Positions 37,066 to 50,559 of a DNA stretch of 64,000 nucleotides are shown here, in pieces. This DNA comes from Acetobacter estunensis (GTDB taxonomy: Bacteria; Pseudomonadota; Alphaproteobacteria; Acetobacterales; Acetobacteraceae), in assembly GCF_011516945.1 (NCBI RefSeq), contig NZ_WOTH01000001.1, positions 62,001 to 126,000 of the forward strand, read 5' to 3'. Below the pieces are notes generated by a model that saw only the letters and a program-made list of their open reading frames with translations, had not been told where the DNA came from and did no database searches. The first letter of the stretch is position 1, and each line of letters opens with the position of its first letter. The position numbers and the translations under genes are program-made.

Positions 37066-37125
37066 ATTGCACGAACTGATGTGCAATTCCCCACGAATTT
37101 ACTTGAACGGGCGTGCATTTGCACG
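37066..37125. promoter_or_regulatory. GTGCA/TGCAC palindromes upstream of phage HTH gene
   Basis: ATTGCAC and GTGCAAT (37066-37072, 37081-37087) are separated by 8 bp, and CGTGCATTTGCACG (37112-37125) is a perfect palindrome with a 2-nt centre. All four half-sites share TGCAC and lie 35-94 bp before the HTH gene start, as repressor operators would. Confidence 0.5.
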
Positions 37126-37159
37126 ATTGCGCGCTGGTTCTTCATGTCCGGGTTGTCAC

Positions 37160-37441
37160 ATGGCAAAGAAATTTGATGAGCAAGAGCGCCTGCGCTGCAT
37201 GGATGCACTGCGTGTGTGCCAGAAGAAGCGCATGTCCATTCGGGAAATGGCCCGACATATTGGGGTCAGCCGCAGTTACATTCATCGTCTGACTGTACAG
37301 ATGGGCGTATCATGCGGTGCGATGCATTCGGCCACCGAGAGACGCAAGGAAGCGGGTTGGGAGCCTCTGGCCCCCGGTAGCGCGATTTCCTGCGAAGCGA
37401 TTGGACTGAAGTCATTCGGGTTCTCTTCGGCTTCGCGTTGA
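37160..37441 (+). CDS. Phage HTH DNA-binding protein
   Basis: A 93-residue protein with a clear helix-turn-helix at about residues 20-45 (SIREMARHIGVSRSYIHRLTVQMGV) preceded by a basic helix. The C-terminal tail is short (GWEPLAPGSAISCEAIGLKSF). The start at ATG 37160 is chosen because residues before it in the open frame (from 37067) overlap the operator region. It is the first gene of the phage-like module and may be its regulator. Fold assigned with fair confidence, role inferred. Confidence 0.65.
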   Translation: MAKKFDEQERLRCMDALRVCQKKRMSIREMARHIGVSRSYIHRLTVQMGVSCGAMHSATERRKEAGWEPLAPGSAISCEAIGLKSFGFSSASR

Positions 37442-37484
37442 AACATCGTGTTCCCGGGTATCGGATTCGAAAATTTTGCCTCCC

Positions 37485-37943
37485 ATGAAGAAGAAGCGCC
37501 GGCCCCTGACGGATTCCGAATTTGATTCCCTGTGTGAATGTATCTCAGGAAATGGAAATATTTCTGAGTGTCTGCGGACAATTGGGGCGTCTTTGTCGTC
37601 TCTTTACTTCTATCTGAAGACAAATCCTGACGAAAGGGAACGGATCACGTTGGCGCGTGGTCTCTTTCATGACGATCTGACCTCATCGGTGCGGGATTTG
37701 GCTTTGTCTGGTGTGAAGAGTGTGTCCATTCGTAGAAAAAAGGGAGAAGGGAACGAGGAAATTGCGCCGAATGTGCTGTTGTTGCTGGCTGTTCTCAAAG
37801 AACACTCCAGTCGTCTGGCCCGCGATGAGAAGAACGATCTCGTGCGGGCGTTAAAGTCCACCGATCGTGGGCGAGGGGATGTCATGCGTGAGGAGATTCT
37901 GTCTGACGCGCCACCGGGTCGGATCGATATCGGGAAAAAATGA
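37485..37943 (+). CDS. Putative small terminase subunit
   Basis: A 152-residue protein directly upstream of the large terminase, which it overlaps by 4 bp (ATGA). The N-terminal half has a helix-turn-helix-like stretch ISECLRTIGASLSSLYFYLK with the small-terminase context TNPDERERITLARG. The C-terminal half is helical and charged. Position and HTH fit a DNA-recognising small terminase subunit, but the sequence is not distinctive enough to be certain. An in-frame TTG lies 9 bp upstream of the chosen ATG. Confidence 0.65.
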   Translation: MKKKRRPLTDSEFDSLCECISGNGNISECLRTIGASLSSLYFYLKTNPDERERITLARGLFHDDLTSSVRDLALSGVKSVSIRRKKGEGNEEIAPNVLLLLAVLKEHSSRLARDEKNDLVRALKSTDRGRGDVMREEILSDAPPGRIDIGKK

Positions 37944-39283
37944 CGGCTGGACGAAAGAATACAAGGGTATCTCTGACCAATCCGCAGATGACGATCTATC
38001 AGGCGGGTTGGAAGGAACAATCCCGTTTTCGTGTTGCGGTATGCGGACGACGATTCGGGAAGACGTTTGAAACGACAGAAGAAATAAGGCGTGCGGTTCG
38101 TCTTGCCGTGGAGCGCCGGATCTCCGTCGACAACGAGATCTGGTATGCGGCGCCCACCTTTCGCCAGGCGCGGAAGATATTCTGGCCAAAACTGAAAAAG
38201 TTTTTCCCACCATCATGGTTGTGGACAAAGCCACGTGAGTCCGATCTGTCCATGGAGGTGGGGCCATATCGACATGTGGTTCGGGTCGTAGGTCTTGAAA
38301 ATTATGATGCCTTACGAGGTTCGGGTCTGTTTTTCTTTGTGGGAGATGAATGGGCGGATACGCGCCCGGGTGTGTGGAACGAGGTTATTCGACCTATGCT
38401 TTCGACGGCACAGGGGCATGCGCTGTTCATTGGAACTCCAAAAGGGCGCGATCATTTTCATGAAATTTATGAAAAAGGTCAGGATGGACCGACACATGAG
38501 CGCGGATGGTGGTCATGCTCCTACACCACGATTGAAGGAGGGAATGTTTCTGAAGAGGAGATCGCGTCTGCGCGCAGTTCACTAGATCCACGGCAGTTTC
38601 GTCAGGAGTATGAAGCGTCTTTCGAAAGTTTCGCAGGTCAGTGCATTTACGCGTTTTCGCATTCTGGGTCTATTAAAGATCGAACCTATGATCCGGATAG
38701 TCCGGTTTTTATTGGGTTGGATTTCAACATCAATCCTATGTCTGCCACGGTCTGGCAGGAGCAGGAGACGCCAGAAGGAGAGACGATCACGTTCCAGATT
38801 GACGAGATCGTTCTTCCCACCTCCAACACGGATGAGATGGCGAAAGAGATTGTTGTGCGATACGGAATCAGGGCATCGGATTTTTCGGGTAATGCCACCG
38901 TACAGGCAGGACATATTTCGGTTTATCCAGATCCTTCCGGTGGGTGTCGACGCACGTCCTCTGGTGGAAATACGGATATTTCCATTCTGAAGTCCTATGG
39001 ATTGACGGTGGTAACCCGGCGAAAGGCACCTGCCGTGCGGGACCGGTTGAATTTTACAAATTCCATGTTCCTTACCTCATCGGGGAAGAGACGGGCATTT
39101 GTATCACCAAGGTGCACACAAAGCATCGAAAGCTATGAACGATACGCCTATCTCGTGAATTCTTCGGAGCCGGATAAAAGTGGAGGGTACGATCATCTGG
39201 TCGATGCGACCGGATACTACCTTTTCTTTCGTTTCGCATCCCAAGCCGTTGATGGCAGTCGTTTGAGATTTCTTGAGCGTTAG
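37940..39283 (+). CDS. terL: Phage large terminase subunit
   Basis: A 447-residue packaging motor ATPase and nuclease. Walker A-like VAVCGRRFGKTFETTEE lies near residues 33-49, Walker B with the catalytic acids in FFFVGDEWAD near 133-142, and a coupling motif in ALFIGTPKG. The RNase H-like nuclease domain begins near residue 255 with VFIGLDFNINPMSATVW (first Asp), and the C-terminal GGYDHLVDATGYYLFF supplies a further Asp. Length and layout fit headful phages of the contractile type. Start overlaps the small terminase stop. Confidence 0.92.
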   Translation: MTAGRKNTRVSLTNPQMTIYQAGWKEQSRFRVAVCGRRFGKTFETTEEIRRAVRLAVERRISVDNEIWYAAPTFRQARKIFWPKLKKFFPPSWLWTKPRESDLSMEVGPYRHVVRVVGLENYDALRGSGLFFFVGDEWADTRPGVWNEVIRPMLSTAQGHALFIGTPKGRDHFHEIYEKGQDGPTHERGWWSCSYTTIEGGNVSEEEIASARSSLDPRQFRQEYEASFESFAGQCIYAFSHSGSIKDRTYDPDSPVFIGLDFNINPMSATVWQEQETPEGETITFQIDEIVLPTSNTDEMAKEIVVRYGIRASDFSGNATVQAGHISVYPDPSGGCRRTSSGGNTDISILKSYGLTVVTRRKAPAVRDRLNFTNSMFLTSSGKRRAFVSPRCTQSIESYERYAYLVNSSEPDKSGGYDHLVDATGYYLFFRFASQAVDGSRLRFLER

Positions 39284-39306
39284 GCAATCTGAAAAGGTAG
39301 TAATCA

Positions 39307-40812
39307 TTGGACTGGAAGGAATTGAAGCGGAGCATGATGTTCCCGTCCCGGTATTCTCACCGGACACGCGAACTTCTGGCTCTTGAGCGTGTTCTTGACG
39401 GTACGCTGTACGATCATATCCATCATCCGTTTTTCAGAAGTTGCGACACGGATGGTACCTATATTCCCATAAACAGACGGCGTCCCTCGGTCAGGTCGAA
39501 TCTGTGTAATGTTGTTGTAGATGATTCGGTCTCTCTTCTGTTTGGAGCCTCGCATTGGCCATCGGTCACGGTCCATGGAGCAGATGAACAGGCCAATCAC
39601 CAGGCGGAAAACACGATCCGTCAGATTGTGAAAGCCATGCATCTGTCCTCTCTCATGGAGCAGGCGGCCGTCATGGGATCGGTTGGTTCTGTGGCGATTC
39701 TCGTGCAGGTGATTGAGAACGAACTCGTCATCGAGATCAAAAGAACCTGTTTTCTGGAACCGATATTTTCTTTGTTTGACGCCTCCAGACTGATCCGTGT
39801 TCGTGAGCAGTATATTGTTGATGCGGAAGGATTGAGACGGGCTGGTTTTGGCCAGTTTGAGGCCGGGAATTACTGGTTTACTCGTGATTTCACGGAACAG
39901 GAGACAATTTGGTACCAACCGATCCGCGTCGATGCCTGTGTCGGTATGCCGGATGACCTTGTGCGTGACGACGAGCGGTCTCTTGTGCATGGGTTGGGAG
40001 TGGTGCCGGTTGTATGGATCCGGAATCTTCCCGGAACGGACCCTGTATATCCAGAAGGGAAATGTACATTTGCCGCGGGTATCGATGCTATGATCGATGC
40101 TGATTATCTTTTGTCGCAGACGGTACGAGGGCTGAGATATTCCGCCGATCCGACGATGGTACTGTCGGTTGATGAATACATGATGCCGGGCGGAGGCATT
40201 CCTCCCATTACTAAGGATGCGTCGAACGCTATCGCTCTCCCACAGGGCGGCGAAGCCAAACTTCTTGAGATCAATGGAACAGGTGCGGCGGCGGCACTCA
40301 ACATGTGGGAATCTTTGCGGTCGCTTGCCCTTGAGGCCATGCATGGAAATCGTGCGCATGGCGACAAGGTTTCGGCAGGTCAGTCGGGACGTGCAATGGA
40401 GTTGATGTGCCTCGGTCTGACCTGGCTTACCGGACGGCTGCGACGGTCTTATGGAGAGTTCGGTCTGTTGTCAGTCATCAGACTTATTGCTCGTATCAGC
40501 CAGATTGTTCCGGAACTGACTATACGCGGCAAACAATATGGTCCCCTGGAGTTAGAGAATCTTTCACTGGTGTGGCCACCATGGTTTGAACCGACATTTG
40601 GGGACATGCAGACTATGGCCAATGCGGTACAGGCTGCCAGGTCTTCAGGTTCAGTGTCCGTTGATACGGCGGTCAGAATGATGCGGCCTGCAACGCATGT
40701 TCAGAATGTTGGTGAAGAAATCAACAAAATACAAAACGATTTTGAGTCGCACGATGCCCGTCTGTCTGCCCTGTCGGGCACAGTCGAGGACCGTGACATG
40801 ACTGAGGTTTGA
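39307..40812 (+). CDS. Phage portal protein, SPP1 gp6-like
   Basis: A 501-residue portal. It has the expected N-terminal wing, a central region RRPSVRSNLCNVVVDDSV and the helical part FAAGIDAMIDADYLLSQTVR, and ends with a helical crown. The start is a TTG behind AAAAGGTAG, or possibly the ATG pair at 39334. It directly precedes the scaffold gene (stop and next start TGAATG), as in many tailed phages. Twelve-fold ring function inferred from position and family. Confidence 0.8.
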   Translation: MDWKELKRSMMFPSRYSHRTRELLALERVLDGTLYDHIHHPFFRSCDTDGTYIPINRRRPSVRSNLCNVVVDDSVSLLFGASHWPSVTVHGADEQANHQAENTIRQIVKAMHLSSLMEQAAVMGSVGSVAILVQVIENELVIEIKRTCFLEPIFSLFDASRLIRVREQYIVDAEGLRRAGFGQFEAGNYWFTRDFTEQETIWYQPIRVDACVGMPDDLVRDDERSLVHGLGVVPVVWIRNLPGTDPVYPEGKCTFAAGIDAMIDADYLLSQTVRGLRYSADPTMVLSVDEYMMPGGGIPPITKDASNAIALPQGGEAKLLEINGTGAAAALNMWESLRSLALEAMHGNRAHGDKVSAGQSGRAMELMCLGLTWLTGRLRRSYGEFGLLSVIRLIARISQIVPELTIRGKQYGPLELENLSLVWPPWFEPTFGDMQTMANAVQAARSSGSVSVDTAVRMMRPATHVQNVGEEINKIQNDFESHDARLSALSGTVEDRDMTEV

Positions 40813-41413
40813 ATGGAAACCATGCATACATACGTGCGCTGTCCCGATGACGGATCCGGGAGCGCTCCGGCTCCGGAGGTCTCGGCGTCTTCTTCTGCCT
40901 CATCCGGTCTGCGATCAGCGGCTGACAGCGTAGCGGATGCTTTTTCGAACCAGCTGGCGCAGGCCCAGGCGGATCTGGTGGAAGCGCGGGCACGTGCGGC
41001 CGCTATTGAGGCGGAACTGACGCAAGTGCGTAATGAAGCCCAGACAACCGCCGAGGCCCGAGCGATGGAGATTGCCGGAGTTCGTAAGGATGCTGCCATT
41101 CGCACGGCGGCTGTTACTTCGGGACTCGTGGACATGGAATGTCTTCCGCTGCTCGATATCGCATCTATTTCTGTTGATGAAAGCGGCAATGTCTGTGGTG
41201 TTGAAGAGGCATTTGAAGAACTGAAAGAAAAAAAAGCCATTTCTTTTTTCTGGCGCCAAGGAAAACTCGACACGTGTCAGCGGGACAGCAAAGCTTGCCT
41301 CGGCTCCGCGTGCGAAAAGCGTGTCCTCGGGCTCTATTCGTGACCTTTCCGAAGGTGAATATCGCCAGTCATTGAAGAAGCTCGCGCCATCCTACGCGCG
41401 TCGCTACAATTAA
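40813..41413 (+). CDS. Phage scaffold-like protein with frame break
   Basis: The first frame from ATG 40813 encodes about 145 residues: a Ser-rich start, a coiled-coil region (FSNQLAQAQADLVEARARAA and following), and DMECLPLLDIASISVDESG, typical of head scaffolds. Near 41228-41249 an A8 run and a T6 run interrupt it. The continuing sequence in another frame, SGAKENSTRVSGTAKLASAP and ending SLKKLAPSYARRYN at 41413, is clearly the natural C-terminus. The uninterrupted frame instead ends at 41343 with an unrelated tail. A one-base indel in a homopolymer is the simplest reading; a programmed -2 or +1 shift cannot be excluded. Confidence 0.65.
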
Positions 41414-41425
41414 GGATATTCCTAC

Positions 41426-42793
41426 GTGACGATTGATAATTTTCCATCACAGCTTCAGCCTATCATTCAGCAGGGTTATCTGGCCCGTGAATTTTCTGCT
41501 GGTCTTCAATCCCGTATTGCCTTTCGTGCTATCGCGGATCGGGAAGTCTTTCCAAACCGTGTCGGTGAGACGATCACCAAGACGCGTAAAGGGCTGAAAT
41601 CTCCTGTGACGACGCCGATGAATCCGTCGCAGAATGTCAATTTCGACAATGGCCTTACGCCTTCGACGTGGAGTGTCGAACAGTACACACTGACCATCAA
41701 TCAGTATGGCGACACCATTGACCTGAACGTTGTCAGCGAAGGCGTCGGAATTGCCGATCAGTTCCTCGCTAATGCCAATACCAATGGTATTCAGGCTCTT
41801 CAGTCACTGGACCGGATTGCGCGTAATGCGCTGTTTGGCGGGGGTGTCGGTGGTGTGGGTGGTTACATGGGAGGTAATACCTGTGTCACTACAGCTCTCG
41901 GTTCGAGCAGTACGCAGGTGGCTGTGGATGATATCCGTGGTTTCGAAAGGCTGGTAAATTCGACCGGACAGGTTGTGTCGGTGGCGCAGTCCGCTGGCAT
42001 GACGGTGACCATCGGAAGCAATGCCTACACGCTTGTGTCGGTGACGGCGGATAGCGTGAACACGTCCACTGCTCCTCTGGGGCAGTCGGGGACATTGACG
42101 CTGTCCACCTCGGTATCAGTCAGTGATGGCGCAGCGGGCAGTCCGGTGGTCAGCTCCACGGCGCCGCTGGTTCTGCGTCCCAACAACCGTCTTACGACGG
42201 CCCAGCTTGTGGCGCCTACGGGCAACTATGGATCCAGCAACTATGTCACAGGTGACACGCTGGGCATCCAGACGGTTCTGGCAGCGGTTGCGGCTTTGCG
42301 TATGAACAATGTTCCGACAATCGATGGTGCTTATCACTGTTATCTGGACGATCAGCAGATGCTTGGTCTTTTCCGCGATGGAGACTTTAAATATCTCTAT
42401 CGAGGTGCCTACGGAAGCGATACCTATCGGGCAGGTTCCGTTGTGGAGCTTCTTGGTGTTCGTTTCATCCCGACGACGGAAGCACCTTTGCAGGCGTCCC
42501 TTGGGGCGGGAGTCATTCATCGTGCCATCGTTTGTGGTCAGGGCGCGTTGATCGAGGGCGATTACAGTGGTGCTCTTGAACTTCCTGATAGCGAGCGATC
42601 GCTGGTCGAGAACGTAGATGGTATCATGATGGTCACACGTGAGCCCCTGGATCGTCTGAAACAGATGATCGCTCAGTCGTGGTACTGGATCGGCGGTTTT
42701 GCACTGCCAACCGACGCAACCGTCAACCCGACAATTATTCCGACTTCGACCAACAGTTATCTTAAACGCGGTGTGGTTATCGAGAGTCTGTAA
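41426..42793 (+). CDS. Major capsid protein
   Basis: A 455-residue head protein, GTG start 12 bp after the scaffold stop. The N-terminal arm (MTIDNFPSQLQPIIQQGYLA) and P-domain-like segments FRAIADREVFPNRVGETITK and VPTIDGAYHCYLDDQQMLG indicate an HK97-fold capsid of the N4-gp56-like kind. Residues about 180-255 form a Ser/Thr/Val-rich insert (STSVSVSDGAAGSPVVSSTA), probably a surface insertion domain. No separate decoration or protease gene is seen in the module. Confidence 0.85.
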   Translation: MTIDNFPSQLQPIIQQGYLAREFSAGLQSRIAFRAIADREVFPNRVGETITKTRKGLKSPVTTPMNPSQNVNFDNGLTPSTWSVEQYTLTINQYGDTIDLNVVSEGVGIADQFLANANTNGIQALQSLDRIARNALFGGGVGGVGGYMGGNTCVTTALGSSSTQVAVDDIRGFERLVNSTGQVVSVAQSAGMTVTIGSNAYTLVSVTADSVNTSTAPLGQSGTLTLSTSVSVSDGAAGSPVVSSTAPLVLRPNNRLTTAQLVAPTGNYGSSNYVTGDTLGIQTVLAAVAALRMNNVPTIDGAYHCYLDDQQMLGLFRDGDFKYLYRGAYGSDTYRAGSVVELLGVRFIPTTEAPLQASLGAGVIHRAIVCGQGALIEGDYSGALELPDSERSLVENVDGIMMVTREPLDRLKQMIAQSWYWIGGFALPTDATVNPTIIPTSTNSYLKRGVVIESL

Positions 42794-42852
42794 CGTGGCA
42801 TGACCGGTGGTTCCTTGGTTATGGAATTACCGGTCATTGAAGGGATAGGGAC

Positions 42853-43248
42853 GTGAGCGACGTTGCGCCACAAACCGAACTGACGGCAGGCGAGAAAGTG
42901 GATATCCGGCGTTATTGCTGGTATCCACTTCTGGGAAATGGCCATGGTTTCGGTTTTTTTTGCGACTATTCAAACCGATGCTCGATTGAGTATCGAATGA
43001 ATACATTATCCTCTGAAGAAATTAACGTCGTGCGTCGTATGTTAACGACCCTTATGTCGTTGGAAACAGGGCCTGCAGCTTCGGCGTCCAATCTGGACAC
43101 CGACAAGGCATCGGTGTGGACACATAATAAGGACGAGGTTGCACAGAGAATTGGTCTGTTCAACCAGCAGAGATTTGAACTTGTTCGTTTTCTCGGGGTG
43201 CGTCCCGGTCCTGCCTGGCAATCAACGGATATCAGGCTCGTAGTCTGA
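42853..43248 (+). CDS. Phage connector-like protein
   Basis: A 131-residue protein in the head-tail connector position, between the capsid and the neck genes. The start is GTG after AGGGATAGGGAC. It is helical in its second half (SSEEINVVRRMLTTLMSLE, NKDEVAQRIGLFNQQRFELV) and ends in a short beta segment. No domain is recognised; the assignment rests on position and length. Its stop overlaps the start of the next gene by 1 bp. Confidence 0.6.
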   Translation: MSDVAPQTELTAGEKVDIRRYCWYPLLGNGHGFGFFCDYSNRCSIEYRMNTLSSEEINVVRRMLTTLMSLETGPAASASNLDTDKASVWTHNKDEVAQRIGLFNQQRFELVRFLGVRPGPAWQSTDIRLVV

Positions 43249-43925
43249 TGGACCTTTCTTTATTACAGCAAAAAATTTCATCCGGTCTGACTAAGGCTGC
43301 TTCGATCGCGGGCGTTCCTGTAATGCGGAAGCGGCCACAGGAAGCATTTGATCCTCTTGGAACGGGTGATTCAATTGCACTGAAAAGTCTGTTTGACATG
43401 TCAGCTTCTTTTCCAGGAACTTCACCTGATACATGGGGGCATGTCTCCCTCTTTGCCTCAGTGAATAGTGATATCTTGGTTGGAGATTATCTTCAGGTCA
43501 TCCCGGATTCTGATCTTCCTACTCTCCTGACCGATACCTATTTCGTGGCTCGTACAGAGCCTGCTCGGCCGTCTCTTGTGATCATGACAAATGCTGTCAT
43601 TTCTTTTTTGCAGTCAGATTCATCATTGGATGATGACGATTTCGGTTTGCGTGTACCTCAGGGTCCTGTCAGGAAAGATGACATTTCAGTGGCTACAGGT
43701 TGGCCTGCATCAATGTTGCGATCTGGTGGCGGAGGAAAGTCAACGACTGATCTGGGAACGGACGTCAGGGTGGCGGGATGGGAGATCCTTATGCCTGTGA
43801 TTCCAAGGGTGAGGATCCATGAAGGACTGCGTATGCAGGACGAACACAATAACTTTTTCCATGTGTGTTCCGTTGAGCAAACGCCTTTTGGTCTGCGTAT
43901 CGAAGTGACAGCGGATCAGACGTGA
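43248..43925 (+). CDS. Phage head-tail connector/neck protein
   Basis: A 225-residue protein with mixed alpha/beta composition. A helix at the start (LSLLQQKISSGLTKAASIAG) is followed by strand-rich parts (TWGHVSLFASVNSDILVGDY, VAGWEILMPVIPRVR) and a Gly-rich loop (RSGGGGKSTT). This looks like a small ring-forming tail protein. Overlaps the next gene by 4 bp. Exact role unknown. Confidence 0.6.
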   Translation: MDLSLLQQKISSGLTKAASIAGVPVMRKRPQEAFDPLGTGDSIALKSLFDMSASFPGTSPDTWGHVSLFASVNSDILVGDYLQVIPDSDLPTLLTDTYFVARTEPARPSLVIMTNAVISFLQSDSSLDDDDFGLRVPQGPVRKDDISVATGWPASMLRSGGGGKSTTDLGTDVRVAGWEILMPVIPRVRIHEGLRMQDEHNNFFHVCSVEQTPFGLRIEVTADQT

Positions 43926-45826
43926 TGACAATTGCTCAGGTTGAACAGCATCTGGCACAAGTCATCGCGGAACGGATTTATCCCCAGACCGATATTGGAT
44001 GCATGCGTTCCAGTATCGGTTTGGATGTCAAGGTGGCGCGTGGGGAACCTCAGCAGACGGAACTGCAAAAGGATTTGATGTCGCTCACGCCGGTAGGATG
44101 GATTGTCGTCAATCAGGCGGAAGGCCAAGTGACAGACAAGACACGCTATCGGCGTGACTGGCGGAAAGCCAAGAAGCAGTTTTGTTTTGGGCTGGAAGCC
44201 GTCAATGCACGCGATGGATTTTCCACCACGTTTGTGGGAACAGCACAAACTGATGGTGTGGCTGGTATCGAGATTGAGGGTATATCCTATCCCATTGAGG
44301 TGAAAAAAGGGCAGGGGGCCACTCTGGTAGCGCAGAAGATTTCTGCACTTGTGGCATCTATTGGGCGTTCGACCTGTACATGTATTGAATCGACGCTGAC
44401 GAGCACGACAGGAACCGTTCTCATTGGAAAAGCGTCTGGGCGTCTCCTCTTGCAACGGGAAACTGGCCGGTCAGATGTAAGTTTTATCATCTCCTTATAT
44501 GCACCCTCCATTTTTCATCGTGATTCCATGGAGAAAGCGGTGATGGATGCTGTTTTGGAATGTAATGATTTTTCGTTGGCCCAGGTTGATACGGGGAATT
44601 TTAGATTTTGTGGGCGTAAACTCAATAATGCCAACCTGAATGCCAATGTATATGGGCTTGAACTCGAATGGAGGGCAGAAATTGCTTTCAGCGAGGCGTT
44701 ACTTACCGTGCCGGTTATGTGGACGACTGGGGTGGTCAATGACGTCCTGACATTAGGTACCAAGGAAGGCTTGAATATCTCGGATCTACCTCCTATGGGA
44801 GCATTCCGACAGGACTTCTGGTATAATATGACACGTTCTGTGGACCAGCAATGCGCAACCGCTCTTTCTGATGCTCAGTGGTCTGATCGACTTCCTGTCA
44901 ATACACTGACGTCTCCTTCCGGGAGTGTGTCATGGCCTGTGGCGGATCAGGCGGTTATGGATGTAGAAATTACGTCGGCAGTGCAATGCGGCTTGTCATT
45001 CTGGATTTTCGATACAAAGTTCTGGTTGGATGGGAAGGGAGATGATTTCTCCCTTTATCTTTCCAGTGCACAAAAGAACGCATTGAAATTCGGTTTTCTT
45101 GTGCATTTTGAGCAGATTGTTGCCGGCCATCAACCTGAATACGAAATATATTTAAATGATCCAAGCCATTTCTTGTTTGGGGACGATCGTCCTCTTTTGT
45201 GTCTTGGTATGGAATCGATGGATATTTCGTTATCGGAAGTTAATATTGTAGCCGACTACATAAGAAAAATTCGAAAAGAAAGACTGTCTGAAAATTTGTC
45301 CAATCCTTATGTTCTTCTCGTGCCATCACCTGTCAGTGTTCAAAGTGAAGTAGAGCGCATGCGGAAAAAAGTTGGTGCGGACGCAATTGCAGCAGGAAAT
45401 ATTGCCCAACCGATCATAGAACCAACTCCTTATTCCGAGTTGGCAATAAGTGTAAAAAACGATTGGCAAGACAAAGAAAAAAGCGGTTCTCCTATAATTC
45501 CTGTGGCGATGATGGGATGGGACAGGCGACCATTGGCGGATGTTCCGCAAGCATTATTTCCACTCAGAGAGAATGAAAATAGAGATTCATTTTATGAGGA
45601 AAATATAGAGGCTTGCGCGGAACTTGTTCAGGATCTTCTGAATTTTTCCAGAAATTCTGGAAGCGTTTCGGCAAAAGTAGGTCTTATCAATGCATGGAAT
45701 GATTTTATCGAAGGTACATGGCTAGCGCCTACCCGTGGGGACACGGATATGGATGAAACGCGCGTGATGTGCGTTGCGCACAAGATCGAAGAAATCAAAG
45801 CTGCGGATATTTTTCCTGACGTATGA
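43922..45826 (+). CDS. Phage neck/tail protein fused to GH99/WbsX-like domain
   Basis: A 634-residue protein made of two parts. Residues 1-280 are phage-like (FSLAQVDTGNFRFCGRKLNN, LELEWRAEIAFSEALLTVPV), in tail-completion position just before the sheath. From about 295 the sequence resembles family 99-type glycosidases and WbsX-like domains: DAQWSDRLPV near 317, DVEITSAVQCGLSFWIFDTK, then IIPVAMMGWDRRPLAD, and LINAWNDFIEGTWLAP near 590-606, matching the AWNEW-EG end motif with Asp for Glu. The composition is more AT-rich than host genes. A glycan-acting domain on a neck or tail protein is inferred; catalytic residues were not confirmed. Confidence 0.65.
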   Translation: MMTIAQVEQHLAQVIAERIYPQTDIGCMRSSIGLDVKVARGEPQQTELQKDLMSLTPVGWIVVNQAEGQVTDKTRYRRDWRKAKKQFCFGLEAVNARDGFSTTFVGTAQTDGVAGIEIEGISYPIEVKKGQGATLVAQKISALVASIGRSTCTCIESTLTSTTGTVLIGKASGRLLLQRETGRSDVSFIISLYAPSIFHRDSMEKAVMDAVLECNDFSLAQVDTGNFRFCGRKLNNANLNANVYGLELEWRAEIAFSEALLTVPVMWTTGVVNDVLTLGTKEGLNISDLPPMGAFRQDFWYNMTRSVDQQCATALSDAQWSDRLPVNTLTSPSGSVSWPVADQAVMDVEITSAVQCGLSFWIFDTKFWLDGKGDDFSLYLSSAQKNALKFGFLVHFEQIVAGHQPEYEIYLNDPSHFLFGDDRPLLCLGMESMDISLSEVNIVADYIRKIRKERLSENLSNPYVLLVPSPVSVQSEVERMRKKVGADAIAAGNIAQPIIEPTPYSELAISVKNDWQDKEKSGSPIIPVAMMGWDRRPLADVPQALFPLRENENRDSFYEENIEACAELVQDLLNFSRNSGSVSAKVGLINAWNDFIEGTWLAPTRGDTDMDETRVMCVAHKIEEIKAADIFPDV

Positions 45827-45849
45827 TTTCATAACATCAAGGGCATAAA

Positions 45850-47415
45850 ATGGGTATCATTACTCAATCTGGAACGCTGAATACAGCTTCCCTCGTGGTT
45901 CCGGATCTCTATGTGCAGATCCAGACAAATGGTAGCACGTCACTTTCTGGAGCGCAGACAAATGTCATTGGCGTTGTGGGAACAGCGTCGTGGGGACCGG
46001 TAAATACACCTCTGGTTTTTGGTACGTCCGCTGAACGTATCGTGGCTTTCGGTCTCATGCAGACGAACCAGTTCGATCTGGCCACGGTCGTTTCCACAGC
46101 GATTTTGCAGGGAGCCTCCAGTTTCGTTGGTGTTCGCGTAACCGATGGTACGGATGCTGCTGCATCCGCGGCTCTGCTGGCCGATGAAAATGGTGCGACT
46201 TACCCTGTGTTGCTCTCTGCGCGTTATACGGGGACATCAGGTAACACCATTACGGCGGCGCTTTCGGCTGGCTCGGCGTTGAATACGTGGAAGCTTACGG
46301 TTTCCATGCCAAACAGTATTCCTGAGACGTTCGATAACATAGCGGTCGGAAGCGCCCCTGCTGATTTCTGGGCGGCTCTTGTGTCGGCTGTCAATAATGG
46401 TGTGTCAAACGCCCGTGGACCGAGCAATATCGTTGTGGCGGCTTTGGGTGCCGAAACGAGCGTGGCACCAACGGCAATAGCGAACATCACCCTCGTCAAT
46501 GGCAAGGATGGCAATACAGGGGTTGTCGCAGAAAATCTTGTGGGCACAGATGGTGTCACCCGTACGGGCATGTATGTCCTGCGCGGACAGGATTGCAGCA
46601 TTGGCGTGTTGAGTGGCGTAACGGACAGCTCCACATGGTCCGTGCAGGTGGCTTTTGGCGTGGCTGAAGGTCTTTATATGATTTCCGGCGGTCCGGCTGG
46701 GCAGGCGATTTCCGATGCACTCGCCAGCCGCACTAATGCGGGAGTGGACAGTTACGCCCTCAAGGTCATGTTTGGCGACTGGATATATTGGTATGATTCA
46801 GAAAATTCATTGACAAGATTGGTGTCACCAGCAGGTTTTGTCGCAGGTCGTCTTGCGTCTCTGTCGCCGCAACTGCCCAGTCTGAACAAGCAGCTTTATG
46901 GCATTGTCGGGAGTCAGAAGAGCGGTTTGACGAGTACGGGTCAGACTCTGACGTATTCGTCCTCTGAATTGTCTTCGCTTTTTGAGAACGGTTTCGACGT
47001 CATCAGCAATCCGGCTCCTGGAGGGAGTTACTGGACGGTGCGGGGTGGATTCAACTTTTCCAGCAATTCTGAAATTGATGGCGATGAATACACCCGTGTA
47101 AACAATTTCATTGCCCGTACGATTTCGGACGGTATGGGCATCTACATCGGTGAGCCGATTTCTCCCACCCTGTTCCGCAATATTGAAGCGACACTGACAG
47201 GTTTTTTGTCCGACCTGCAATCGCAAGGTGTGATTGGCACGGAAGATGGCAGCGTGGCCTATTCGGTTACGTGTTCATCATCGAACAATCCACAGTCCCG
47301 TGTGGCTCTTGGGTTTGTGCAGGCCGATGTCAGCGTGACCTATCTCGGCGTGAACAGGAAGTTCATCGTGAATATTGATGGAGGGGCCGACGTGACCGTG
47401 GCCAGCGCATCGTGA
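45850..47415 (+). CDS. Contractile tail sheath protein
   Basis: A 521-residue sheath subunit. The N-terminus GVVGTASWGPVNTPLVFGTS is the classic sheath start and GYxVGVRVTDG-like sequence follows. A large Ser/Thr-rich variable middle is typical. The C-terminal domain includes GGFNFSSNSEIDGDEYTRVN and FNxxARTISDGMG-like blocks, then strands for interaction with the tube (ADVSVTYLGVNRKFIVNIDGG). Its stop overlaps the tube start, GTGA. This defines the phage as a contractile-tailed myovirus type. Confidence 0.9.
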   Translation: MGIITQSGTLNTASLVVPDLYVQIQTNGSTSLSGAQTNVIGVVGTASWGPVNTPLVFGTSAERIVAFGLMQTNQFDLATVVSTAILQGASSFVGVRVTDGTDAAASAALLADENGATYPVLLSARYTGTSGNTITAALSAGSALNTWKLTVSMPNSIPETFDNIAVGSAPADFWAALVSAVNNGVSNARGPSNIVVAALGAETSVAPTAIANITLVNGKDGNTGVVAENLVGTDGVTRTGMYVLRGQDCSIGVLSGVTDSSTWSVQVAFGVAEGLYMISGGPAGQAISDALASRTNAGVDSYALKVMFGDWIYWYDSENSLTRLVSPAGFVAGRLASLSPQLPSLNKQLYGIVGSQKSGLTSTGQTLTYSSSELSSLFENGFDVISNPAPGGSYWTVRGGFNFSSNSEIDGDEYTRVNNFIARTISDGMGIYIGEPISPTLFRNIEATLTGFLSDLQSQGVIGTEDGSVAYSVTCSSSNNPQSRVALGFVQADVSVTYLGVNRKFIVNIDGGADVTVASAS

Positions 47416-47837
47416 CAACACCTTATACCCTTGGCCGTCAGGGCTCGATCATTCTTGTCTGGAATGGTACGCGTGTGGATTTGCAGGATGTAGTGGATTT
47501 TCACGCCCAGCAGGAAATCCATGTTCAGCGCGCCAATCCGCTGAATAAACCACCTATCGAATTCAACACGCCTGCGGGTTGGAGGGGCAGCTTCACTCTT
47601 GATCGCGCGAATGCCGCACTTGATACGCTGTTCAATGAGGACGAACTGGCATTTTGGAATACAAACACCATCTCTTCCGGTGTGCTTTATTGCTATATTG
47701 AAGAAAATGATGGGTCAACCTCAAAATTTGAGTATAGCGGTGTCACACTGGCGTTCACGAATGCGGGGAAATTCGATGCCAATAGCATCGTTTCGCAATC
47801 GGTGACCTTTTTCGCCAGTCAGAGGCGTGCCATCTGA
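47412..47837 (+). CDS. Tail tube protein
   Basis: A 141-residue beta-rich protein directly after the sheath. The region QQEIHVQRANPLNKPPIEFN followed by GWRGSFTLDRANAALDTLF, with LAFTNAGKFDANSIVSQSVT, has the strand pattern and length of contractile-phage tubes. Start is GTG within the sheath stop. Forms the rigid tube inside the sheath by position. Confidence 0.8.
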   Translation: MTTPYTLGRQGSIILVWNGTRVDLQDVVDFHAQQEIHVQRANPLNKPPIEFNTPAGWRGSFTLDRANAALDTLFNEDELAFWNTNTISSGVLYCYIEENDGSTSKFEYSGVTLAFTNAGKFDANSIVSQSVTFFASQRRAI

Positions 47838-48315
47838 TGAGCCAGGCTGGAAATGATACGGAAATTGTCACAGCGGAAGGACGGAAGCTGTCCTATCGTG
47901 AAATGAATCCGGGAGAGATCCTTGATTTTCTTCTGGCTTGTGGAAGTGAGGGAGCCCGCAACGAAGCGTATCTGAATGCGGCTCAGGCATGGTGCTCGGT
48001 GCGGGCCATCGATGGCATTCCTGTTCCTTTTCCTTCCAGCCGAAATGGCATCCGTGATCTGGTCAATCAGATCGGGGCGGATGGTATCGACGCCATTGAA
48101 CGGCATTTGCAGGTCGATGATGAAGATCAGGTCCACGACATAAAAAACTAGCAACCTCTCCATCCATGTGGACCATCATGATGCTTCTCAAGGCGAATGT
48201 TCCTTATGAAATCATCATGAAATGGGACTGGAAAACACGTGCCGCTGCTCTCGTGGTTGCCGGCACGATGGATGGAGGGGAGTTCTCATGGGAAAATCTC
48301 TGCTGGAGGGAGTGA
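47837..48315 (+). CDS. Tail assembly chaperone with -1 frameshift extension
   Basis: The zero-frame product is 104 residues (47837-48151), helical and acidic, with ...LVNQIGADGIDAIERHLQVD at its C-terminus. It ends ATA AAA AAC TAG. A -1 slip at A AAA AAC bypasses the stop and continues without interruption to 48315, adding 55 residues (LATSPSMWTIMMLLKANVPY and onward through WDWKTRAAALVVAG). The total is 159 residues. This is the arrangement of lambda G/GT and P2 E/E', where the long form recruits the tape measure protein. Position between tube and tape-measure slot fits. Confidence 0.8.
48142..48148 (+). promoter_or_regulatory. A AAA AAC slippery site
   Basis: The heptamer is in correct register (X XXY YYZ) and directly precedes the TAG stop of the chaperone. 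It is the same heptamer type known from efficient -1 frameshift sites. The downstream RNA structure was not calculated. Confidence 0.75.
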
Positions 48316-48350
48316 GCCTTCCTGCGGGAAGGTATGTGGAGTGATCGGAA

Positions 48351-49439
48351 ATGTTTCGGAGAAGGAGCGACAGCCACGCACAGCGGCGTGTGACCGGACG
48401 AAAAGGAAGTGTGGCTCGCGCTTCTGAGATTGGTCCAGGCGCGGCTCGCCTTATGCCCCGTTTTTTGCGGCGGGGGCAGAACCTTCATGATGAAATGGAA
48501 GGCAGAGTATCTGTCCTGCGTCGAGAAGCTTCTGTCTCGCCTGCGCCTTCAATGGATAGGTCGGTGCGTAATCATGCATCTTCACTGATTCTACGCACTG
48601 GTGTTCGTCGGATATCCTCGACTTCCGAAAGACCGTGGAGAGCAGAGGTTCGTGAACCAGAAAAAGTTTCTTTAATATCTAAACAGCGAGCACGGCAGAG
48701 TTTCTCTATTGCGTCTTTTGTTCACAGAGAGACACACGCGCGGCGTATGGAACATTTTCCTGTCCGTGCAATTGGTAATTTGAGACCTACGACTTTTTCA
48801 ACCGATCGCATGTTGCGTGCTCACATTCCACGTATATCAAAGACAAAAGGAGAAATTAAAGAACGCAATGGATTCGTCATCACTCCGAGGGTGTCAATTT
48901 CACGCACGATCAGAACACCTTCGAGTATGATTCCCTCTGAGAAAAACAAGCAAAGTTATATTCTCCGTCCTCATCAGAATCCGTCTCGAAGAGCCTCGAT
49001 AGAAGCACGATTTATTCGCAAATCCATACCGAATGGAGGCATGGACAGCGTTATGAGACATGGTCGGAAACAGAAGGATGCACTTTTGCGGAGTTTTGGA
49101 GAACGCACGAACTCGCATGAGAGCACGATGCCTCATTTTGGTGGAACGTCTCGTCCGGATGCGCCGTCTCACTCTTCCCCGTTTTCGTCAAGTTCCCCAC
49201 GCCAGAACGGTCTTGCCGCAGCGGCGCGCTCGCCTTCACCTTTCATGCCGAAAAAAAACGGTGATCTATCGTCTTCTCGAAGTTCGGAACACGGACAAAC
49301 CATGAAAGACCATCAACCTCATGCTGATCTACGCCGCATGATGATGACTGAACTTCAGGGTATTCTCTCGGCACCTCCCACAATGTCACCGCTGTCGTGG
49401 GTGCAGGCAACTCCCAGCTATCCGGGGTTTCATATCTGA
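48351..49439 (+). CDS. Arg/Ser-rich protein in tape-measure position
   Basis: A 362-residue frame between chaperone and gpU-like gene, where a tape measure protein would stand. The sequence is extremely rich in Arg, Ser and Pro (for example RRISSTSERPWRAEVREPE and SHSSPFSSSSPRQNGLAAAA), has no clear hydrophobic helix and is short for a tape measure. It may be a truncated or unusual tape measure, or a DNA-binding or disordered structural protein. The start is ATG after GGAGTGATCGGAA. The C-terminal 14 codons are next to the overlapping gpU-like gene. Existence as a real gene is likely from position and continuous frame. Confidence 0.55.
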   Translation: MFRRRSDSHAQRRVTGRKGSVARASEIGPGAARLMPRFLRRGQNLHDEMEGRVSVLRREASVSPAPSMDRSVRNHASSLILRTGVRRISSTSERPWRAEVREPEKVSLISKQRARQSFSIASFVHRETHARRMEHFPVRAIGNLRPTTFSTDRMLRAHIPRISKTKGEIKERNGFVITPRVSISRTIRTPSSMIPSEKNKQSYILRPHQNPSRRASIEARFIRKSIPNGGMDSVMRHGRKQKDALLRSFGERTNSHESTMPHFGGTSRPDAPSHSSPFSSSSPRQNGLAAAARSPSPFMPKKNGDLSSSRSSEHGQTMKDHQPHADLRRMMMTELQGILSAPPTMSPLSWVQATPSYPGFHI

Positions 49440-50356
49440 TGAGTCTTCTGGGTGTTGTTGGAGCGATCGGGGCGGCTCTGGGAAGTCAGGCCTTTCGTCT
49501 GGGAAATGTCGTATTTCTTGATACCGAGGTGCCGTCCGCGCTCAGTTGGGGTGGCTATCAGGCAACCTCGACGTTTTTTCAGCCGGGTGGTGGAAAAGTT
49601 GTCGTTCTTGGGGGGTATTTCGATGAACCCCTCGTCTGGAACGGCATATTCCGGGGCAGCACTGCGCTTGCGCGTGCCCGCACGCTCGATGCCATGGCGC
49701 GCAGTGGCTCCGAATGGGTCTTTTCGGGAGGAGGAGTCGTTCGGCAGGTGGTCATAACCGCTTTCGAAGCGGCTTATACGGAAAACGGAACGGTCATTCC
49801 TTATCAGATTGCCTGTGAGGTGATACCGCAGGCGGCAAATACGCTTTCGTCCACGCGCTCGGTTCTCACCAGTCTGATCGGGACACAGGCGACGAATGCG
49901 CTGGGGGCCATATCGGGCACATTTACAAGTCTTTCGTCGTATGTCTCGGCAGCATCATCGTCACTTTCGTCCTATGCGGGTGAGATTACACCGCTGGCGA
50001 ACCTCTTTGGGAGTGGCGGGAGCGTGTCCAGCCTGTCTGCCACTCTCTCTGGGATTTCGACGCAGGCGAACGCGCTTTCGTCGTTGAGCAGTAACGCGAC
50101 GCTTACGACACTGGGAAGCAGCATCACGGACGCGGGGACGTCCGTTTCGTCCCTGTCGGCAACCTCGGAAACTGAACTGGCGTCCATTGCGGCCAATGCG
50201 AACGGCAATATCGTTTCAGACGGCTCATCTCTGATTGCCGCCATCTGCCATTCCGCCACATCATCCTCTTCGTCTCTGGCAGGATCTTATTTGAATCAGG
50301 CTAATGGCACGATCGAAACCATTACGGGAAATTCCATTCAGAGCGCACAACCATGA
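49439..50356 (+). CDS. gpU-like tail protein
   Basis: A 305-residue protein, start ATG 49439 overlapping the previous stop by 1 bp (TGATG). The N-terminal third resembles P2 gpU-type baseplate/tail proteins: ALSWGGYQATSTFFQPGGGK, VVVLGGYFDEPLVWNGIFRG, ARARTLDAMARSGSEWVFSG. The C-terminal two thirds are Ser/Thr/Ala-rich with LSSLSSNATLTTLG-like repeats, longer than usual gpU. It precedes the LysM protein, as U and X are neighbours in P2-like tails. A longer frame from 49397 is less likely. Confidence 0.7.
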   Translation: MSLLGVVGAIGAALGSQAFRLGNVVFLDTEVPSALSWGGYQATSTFFQPGGGKVVVLGGYFDEPLVWNGIFRGSTALARARTLDAMARSGSEWVFSGGGVVRQVVITAFEAAYTENGTVIPYQIACEVIPQAANTLSSTRSVLTSLIGTQATNALGAISGTFTSLSSYVSAASSSLSSYAGEITPLANLFGSGGSVSSLSATLSGISTQANALSSLSSNATLTTLGSSITDAGTSVSSLSATSETELASIAANANGNIVSDGSSLIAAICHSATSSSSSLAGSYLNQANGTIETITGNSIQSAQP

Positions 50357-50559
50357 CAAATGTATATGAAAGCCAGACCATTACCGTGAGCCCCGCGGAT
50401 ATTTCCCTGTGGCATGTGGCCGCGAAATATCTTGGTGACGCGACGCAGGCCAATCGCATCATGGATGTGAACGGCCTGTCCGAGACATGGGTGACGGGGA
50501 CGCTCACCCTGCAATTACCCCCTTATGACAGCAGTCAGACGGGCGGTCTCAGTACCTGA
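50353..50559 (+). CDS. Tail protein X, LysM-like
   Basis: A 68-residue protein with the compact LysM fold, starting MTNVYESQTITVSPADISLW and having YLGDATQANRIMDVNGLSE in the middle. In P2-like phages gpX joins the hub to the tail. It overlaps the gpU-like stop by 4 bp and is the last phage gene. A hub (gpD) would be expected next, but the sequence goes straight into the hairpin and the TonB receptor gene. Confidence 0.8.
   Translation: MTNVYESQTITVSPADISLWHVAAKYLGDATQANRIMDVNGLSETWVTGTLTLQLPPYDSSQTGGLST

Follow-up and report, generated by a model that had tools for sequence, protein, structure and literature searches.

A tail terminator fused to a GH99/WbsX-like barrel in a dispersed, vertically inherited contractile element of Acetobacter

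Fibres and baseplates are the parts of a phage particle on which carbohydrate-active domains are expected. The polysaccharide-acting parts of RcGTA, the gene transfer agent of Rhodobacter capsulatus, include capsule-binding head spikes, a tailspike that degrades biofilm (TspA), and a TIM barrel on the baseplate (PMC13420450). Lactococcal 936 phages carry carbohydrate-binding modules in their neck passage structure (PMC6669499); these are glycan-binding domains at a phage neck, as in the case described here, but they are binding modules rather than an enzyme fold and belong to another host and virion. Gene transfer agents are recognized in genomes by endogenized phage structural genes, often at several loci, and by vertical inheritance with co-diversification with the host, while experimentally they are defined by particles that deliver the random host DNA they contain (PMC9662315).

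We analysed a 64,000-nucleotide stretch of Acetobacter DNA (the window) that contains a phage-derived element, known from its genes alone, in which a predicted tail terminator continues into a glycoside-hydrolase-like barrel. Like RcGTA, the element occupies dispersed loci, is inherited vertically and has its fibre gene off the main cluster; unlike RcGTA, it encodes a contractile tail, bears its barrel on the neck rather than the baseplate, and draws on other capsid and tail gene families. The closest isolated phages by capsid are the prophage-derived Komagataeibacter phages phiKX1 and phiKX2 (53 kb), whose capsid is 66% identical to that of the window element. phiKX1 has a similar order of head and tail genes and a terminator homologue that, in contrast with the window protein, is about 293 aa long and lacks the barrel, while phiKX2 was compared by its capsid match only. 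No description of such an element in Acetobacter turned up in the set of papers that was searched.

The neck gene and its predicted domains

A single open reading frame on the forward strand (43922-45826; GTG start, next ATG at 43925) encodes a 634-aa protein, for which a structure model built from an alignment of 23 sequences had a mean pLDDT of 83.6. The initial annotation had described a GH99/WbsX-like domain at 44797-45826 (residues ~293 to the stop) fused to a phage neck/tail protein, and the C-terminal motifs on which it relied (DAQWSDRLPV, GLSFWIFD, GWDRRPL and NAWNDFIEG) are all present in this frame. The protein is divided as follows:

43922..44707, forward strand: predicted tail terminator domain, residues 1-262 (phrog_13532; model of the domain alone; VIA)
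44708..44782, forward strand: linker, mostly disordered, residues 263-287 (pLDDT <50 for residues 269-287)
44783..45826, forward strand: predicted GH99/WbsX-like (beta/alpha)8 barrel, residues 288-634 and stop (8 strands; GH99 matches; hhalign to WbsX)
45701..45712, forward strand: D594-F-I-E597, at the position of the GH99 dyad E-x-x-E or GH71 dyad D-x-x-E (sequence, alignment)

Residues 1-273 matched phrog_13532 (E 6e-17) and the next gene matched the tail sheath family phrog_23 (E 4e-43), in agreement with the earlier statement that the N-terminal part is phage-like and lies just before the sheath. When the N domain was modelled alone, VIA aligned it with the tail terminators of T5 (p142, Z 14.4), lambda (gpU, 13.6), RcGTA (12.7), Mu (12.4) and phage 812 (11.3), and it also matched the R-pyocin tail terminator, with all listed terminators at Z 11-14; phage neck proteins also ranked high in Foldseek. 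The fold in the model and the gene position before sheath and tube support a phage tail terminator, and with it the neck placement first proposed. The window protein differs from the T5, lambda, Mu, phage 812 and RcGTA terminators in a beta-rich insertion at about residues 98-172, which resembles a tail-sheath domain (Z 5-6), and in its C-terminal barrel.

Structure prediction had been suggested as a check on the GH99/WbsX assignment, and the model contains a TIM barrel, with regular beta/alpha strands at residues 292, 360, 389, 423, 463, 488, 525 and 587 within residues 288-628. The top PDB matches in Foldseek were GH99 enzymes (E 7e-9 to 1e-7), and VIA-align of the barrel likewise ranked GH99 first (Z 20-23 over 281-294 residues), followed by GH71 (about 18) and all others (about 15 or less), which supports a predicted fold nearest to GH99 and then GH71. 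The GH99 endo-alpha-mannosidases/mannanases BtGH99, BxGH99 and human MANEA, and OpGH99A (5ngw), align over the whole length of the (beta/alpha)8 barrel and, as in the window, bear the dyad after strand 8; the window barrel departs from them in its 12-14% identity, the absence of a Pfam GH99 match, an Asp for the first Glu and its fusion to a tail terminator.

Profile comparison also linked the barrel to WbsX (hhalign 95.7%, E 8.7e-9), with the window's AWND-FIEG falling on AWNE-WAEG in the NAWNE-xx-EG motif of host WbsX proteins, which supports the GH99/WbsX-like fold. The Pfam WbsX family (PF14307) gave a weak match to the last third of the protein (16.1-17.7 bits, below the gathering cut-off of 25.1), and Acetobacter WbsX proteins are, unlike the window gene, large host proteins at other loci. 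The GH71 alpha-1,3-glucanases AnGH71C and Agn1p have the D-x-x-E dyad in common with the window. Unlike GH71, the modelled window protein stops about 35 residues past the dyad, in a helix, with no C-terminal beta-sandwich, and most of its relatives carry E-x-x-E; the window Asp is therefore probably derived.

Other searches were silent. PADLOC and NCBIfam returned no usable match, and the full-length protein matched nothing among isolated phages or, as a single-sequence query, among viral contigs, where relatives appeared only through profile searches. Against PDB sequences the barrel found nothing significant (best profile match OpGH99A, E 0.35), and GH99 PF16317 had no match at E 1 in a Pfam scan of the protein and none in a search of the window genome. 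A GH99 Pfam search of 142 class and 398 phylum genomes gave zero matches, but its controls were silent too, so this result carries no weight as to absence.

Our first search recovered the full protein from five more Acetobacter genomes at 35-39% identity and the neck part only from five; profile searches added Acetobacter species, Acetobacteraceae MAGs and viral contigs, so that the aligned fusion is found in 17 distinct loci including the window. In the further Acetobacter species the two-domain protein runs without stops or frameshifts, and a chance fusion via recent deletion was ruled out by this conservation. The alignments thus indicate that the fusion is real and old. In genome G012 a transposase-like gene (359 aa) interrupts the terminator gene (L011:2178-3420, same place in L022), which leaves one element copy with a broken neck gene.

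The barrel occurs without the neck part in two relatives. In Methylocapsa sp. S129 (L045:9881-11029) it has a leader-like N-terminus and stands beside dTDP-rhamnose genes, neighbours that hint at a polysaccharide substrate; on a 71-kb viral contig (L056:9983-11086) it adjoins a 427-aa gene without a family match, with several tRNA genes close by. Distant relatives are encoded on Bradyrhizobium plasmids, and three of these four are annotated as GH99-like. Among autonomous relatives, the barrel is missing from the two terminators compared, those of phiKX1 and of an Acetobacter prophage (G066); a search of the remaining two Acetobacter prophage genomes (G061 and G067) with the barrel profile gave no match.

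An element at three loci

The fusion gene belongs to an element at 37067-50559, between pyrD and a TonB-receptor gene (flank names read from the sequence). Around the fusion gene it comprises:

37067..37441, forward strand: small HTH-like gene, left end of the element (weak phrog HTH/terminase-small matches; conserved in 12 loci)
37476..37943, forward strand: terminase small subunit, weak (phrog_4044, E 0.017; conserved)
37940..39283, forward strand: terminase large subunit (phrog_2, E 5e-38)
39307..40812, forward strand: portal protein (phrog_145, E 4e-9)
40813..41343, forward strand: small head gene in scaffold position (order conserved in 21 loci; putative role from position)
41426..42793, forward strand: major capsid protein (phrog_1357, E 4e-52)
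42853..43925, forward strand: two head-tail joining genes of 131 and 225 aa (phrog_14539, phrog_14605; putative adaptor/stopper by gene order)
45850..47415, forward strand: tail sheath
47412..48151, forward strand: tail tube (phrog_12993) and gene in tail assembly chaperone position (phrog_20383), putative roles by order after the sheath
48351..49439, forward strand: Arg/Ser-rich 362-aa frame in tape-measure position (no family match; composition)
49397..50559, forward strand: 319-aa tail/baseplate gene and LysM-like tail gene (phrog_21362, phrog_36820), the last phage genes before host DNA

Several of these genes vary among relatives. The frame in tape-measure position is poorly conserved (dN/dS 0.62 vs A. 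estunensis), and the proteins encoded at this place in phiKX1 and in the G066 prophage are 742-776 aa long. In A. oeni, the homologue of a 68-aa gene in the region of the 319-aa and LysM-like genes matches phrog_28233 and, with a weak match, baseplate hub. A short frame at 48124-48312 overlaps the end of the chaperone gene, with conservation of 57-73% across most Acetobacter loci; it may be a frameshifted chaperone extension of the type seen in other phages. The terminase large-subunit gene is broken in L015:18364 (-), L019:3440, L020:16368 (-), L021:16916 (-) and L022:3369. The break, found in at least five species, falls within the Walker B region (GLFFF* / FFLGDEWADT), on a conserved stretch of ten T, a site at which the window terminase (38318) and others have in-frame variants; by its sequence it looks like programmed slippage and may control packaging. 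Two MAG relatives have a longer large subunit (L042:2108-3877, L043:1749-3809), with an intein-like stretch right after Walker A in L043.

The window element has no integrase, replication or lysis genes, and no integrase was seen on the contigs of MAG copies. Integration targeted to a tRNA was rejected, since the window contains no tRNA gene and most element loci have none either. A viral-contig relative of the element carries a GH108 endolysin right after its baseplate genes (L054:14223-14927), with none in the Acetobacter loci examined.

The LysM-like gene leads straight into the baseplate genes in A. oeni, A. musti, A. nitrogenifigens, A. sacchari and strain DsW_063. The window element ends at the LysM-like gene, and its genome carries the baseplate genes on another contig (G000:C16; gene J 71% identical to that of A. 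oeni). Head and baseplate are also split in seven other genomes, MAG G030 being left out of this judgement because its head contig ends there. At a third locus, G000:C27, host genes surround a tail fibre homologue; such a homologue is present in all 15 element-bearing genomes, adjoining baseplate gene J in G030. In the window genome the fibre gene is immediately followed by a 145-aa gene (L218:7819-8253) with a dN/dS of 0.04 vs A. estunensis. Neither lysis nor regulatory genes were detected at any of the three loci. Phage-derived structural genes are thus endogenized at three loci (the window on C1, the baseplate on C16 and the fibre on C27), as the genomic definition of gene transfer agents describes. 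Because baseplate and fibre are encoded at other loci, we ruled out both a truncated element that has lost its baseplate and a fibreless particle whose neck barrel is its only glycan-acting part.

The element has largely followed its host. By ClpB, the 15 element genomes were the closest of 49 within the window's clade (the ClpB gene of G034 is in pieces), and by PyrD 14 of 15 were nearest to the window, the exception being MAG G030 at 69%. A tree of concatenated element proteins shared 8 of 11 splits with the ClpB tree, and element and ClpB distances were correlated (Mantel r 0.83; none of 5000 permutations as high), the host tree in these comparisons being that of the single gene ClpB. The five species without the barrel have the same host neighbours at the baseplate locus in 5 of 5 cases and at the head locus in 4 of 5, and the MAG relatives L043 and L044 share host flanks too. 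Most genes had dN/dS values of 0.02-0.15, with purifying selection at all three loci in the window lineage; the capsid is 85-89% identical across the host clade (dN/dS 0.016 vs A. estunensis). Vertical inheritance and co-diversification with the host, the other genomic mark of gene transfer agents, are therefore found here, with one host gene for the tree. Of the earlier label "phage neck/tail protein", the neck assignment holds, but the gene does not sit in a plain prophage: it is part of one of three dispersed, vertically inherited loci.

These observations bear on two other readings of the element. It could be an ordinary decaying prophage, with the barrel having served a temperate phage as a glycosidase of its virion and the window showing a remnant that lost baseplate and fibre; the missing integrase, replication and lysis genes, the end after the LysM-like gene, the degenerating glycoside-hydrolase domain (below) and the capsid kinship with phiKX1 and phiKX2 are all compatible with this. 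However, the genome does carry intact baseplate and fibre genes at other places, under purifying selection, and the element tracks host clade and tree with a strongly constrained capsid, so we consider a decaying prophage unlikely. Alternatively, the particle could be no gene transfer agent but a headed bacteriocin, a PBSX-like killer particle whose neck barrel aids in reaching or recognising targets. A contractile tail, a fibre at a separate locus and vertical inheritance would suit such a particle, and the Walker B frameshift in the terminase of at least five species could reduce packaging. Yet the terminase, portal and capsid genes are intact in the window and conserved, and the frameshift sits on a conserved T10 run that could be read through by slippage; a killer particle appears improbable on this evidence. 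We instead favour, as the probable though far from certain reading, a domesticated, contractile, gene-transfer-agent-like element whose tail terminator bears a GH99-superfamily barrel on a flexible linker, the barrel of the window copy being degenerate. The genes, loci and inheritance described above are the genomic part of this reading, while a particle and DNA transfer would follow by analogy.

Active site and wear of the barrel

The catalytic dyad is E-x-x-E in GH99 and D-x-x-E in GH71 (PMC11025385, PMC12394665), and Asp as the first dyad residue is almost exclusively a GH71 trait, GH99 having Glu (PMC12394665). Of the 17 fusions, 13 have Glu as the first dyad residue; the window and A. estunensis have Asp, A. 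conturbans has Asn and A. oeni has Gln, while the second Glu is invariant (19 of 19). The window dyad, D594-F-I-E597, thus lacks the two Glu of GH99 and has the D-x-x-E of GH71. A check of the catalytic Glu positions, proposed with the initial annotation, therefore came out in favour of the second (E597) and against the first (D594).

We compared the 77 barrel columns that are invariant among the 13 E-type fusions: 49 are kept in the window, 45 in A. conturbans and 74 in A. oeni. The residues lost in the window include A362, C391, Y492, Y590, E594 and G599, which are kept even in distant stand-alone relatives. In relative-rate tests the window barrel showed 110 vs 23 changes (p 5e-14) and its neck part 25 vs 14, which was not significant; the A. 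conturbans barrel showed 118 vs 13, with its neck part not accelerated. The barrel tree places the window and A. conturbans together with distant stand-alone relatives, probably through long-branch attraction, although a domain swap may be an alternative source of this grouping. The barrel is missing altogether in five related species.

The ancestral E-x-x-E barrel looks enzyme-like from these alignments. Because the dyad is altered and other conserved residues are lost, the barrel has evolved fast and related species have dispensed with it, catalysis by the window barrel is doubtful, and it is probably a weak or dead enzyme. The enzyme activity first attributed to the domain is accordingly not borne out for the window copy, whose first catalytic Glu is replaced by Asp and whose pocket is altered. 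Some constraint on the window barrel nevertheless remains, as indicated by its dN/dS of 0.28, below 1, vs A. estunensis.

That constraint and the near-exclusive GH71 occurrence of a first-position Asp, common to the window and A. estunensis, could mean that the barrel is still active and has switched to a GH71-type, inverting Asp-x-x-Glu mechanism, perhaps with a new substrate; D298, R296, E349, D364, D487, D534, R536 and E597 are kept. But A. conturbans has Asn at this position with an equal loss of invariant residues, only the barrel domain evolves fast, and five related species have lost it, which together make such a switch unlikely.

Proposed role of the barrel and its significance

The terminator of phage 812 forms a hexamer in contact with the first sheath disc (PMC12886913), from which we infer six barrels around the neck. 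By analogy with this and other solved necks, a terminator hexamer atop the tail would place a ring of six barrels beside the first sheath disc, each hanging on its linker away from the tube and beside the sheath top. The contractile head-and-tail particle would be put together from three loci, with head, neck and tube from the window, the baseplate from elsewhere and the fibre from a third place. The ancestral E-x-x-E barrel would most likely have cleaved or trapped alpha-linked glycans of the producer's kin (EPS, capsule or O-antigen), and this action may have helped particles to exit the cell or to pass surface polysaccharide. In the window lineage the base would have become Asp, with pocket residues changed and fast barrel evolution, while in related species the barrel disappeared; the window barrel was probably retained as a glycan-binding or structural decoration.

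We further propose, tentatively, that this Acetobacter clade makes a three-locus contractile gene transfer agent with six GH99-type barrels at its neck, which would clear a way for particles through the surface polysaccharide of the producer community, a function not previously described for the neck, and that some species, the window's included, are losing the enzyme.

The fusion is a new combination of known parts, and the dispersed contractile element around it is of greater interest. A glycoside-hydrolase barrel on a tail terminator is in an unusual place and would show that an enzyme can be carried without touching the receptor apparatus. The relatives also form a natural series of one domain, with the dyad intact, the dyad altered and the domain lost. 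In acetic acid bacteria, which are harmless and easy to culture, a co-inherited contractile particle encoded at dispersed loci would extend the lineages that resemble gene transfer agents by a contractile one.
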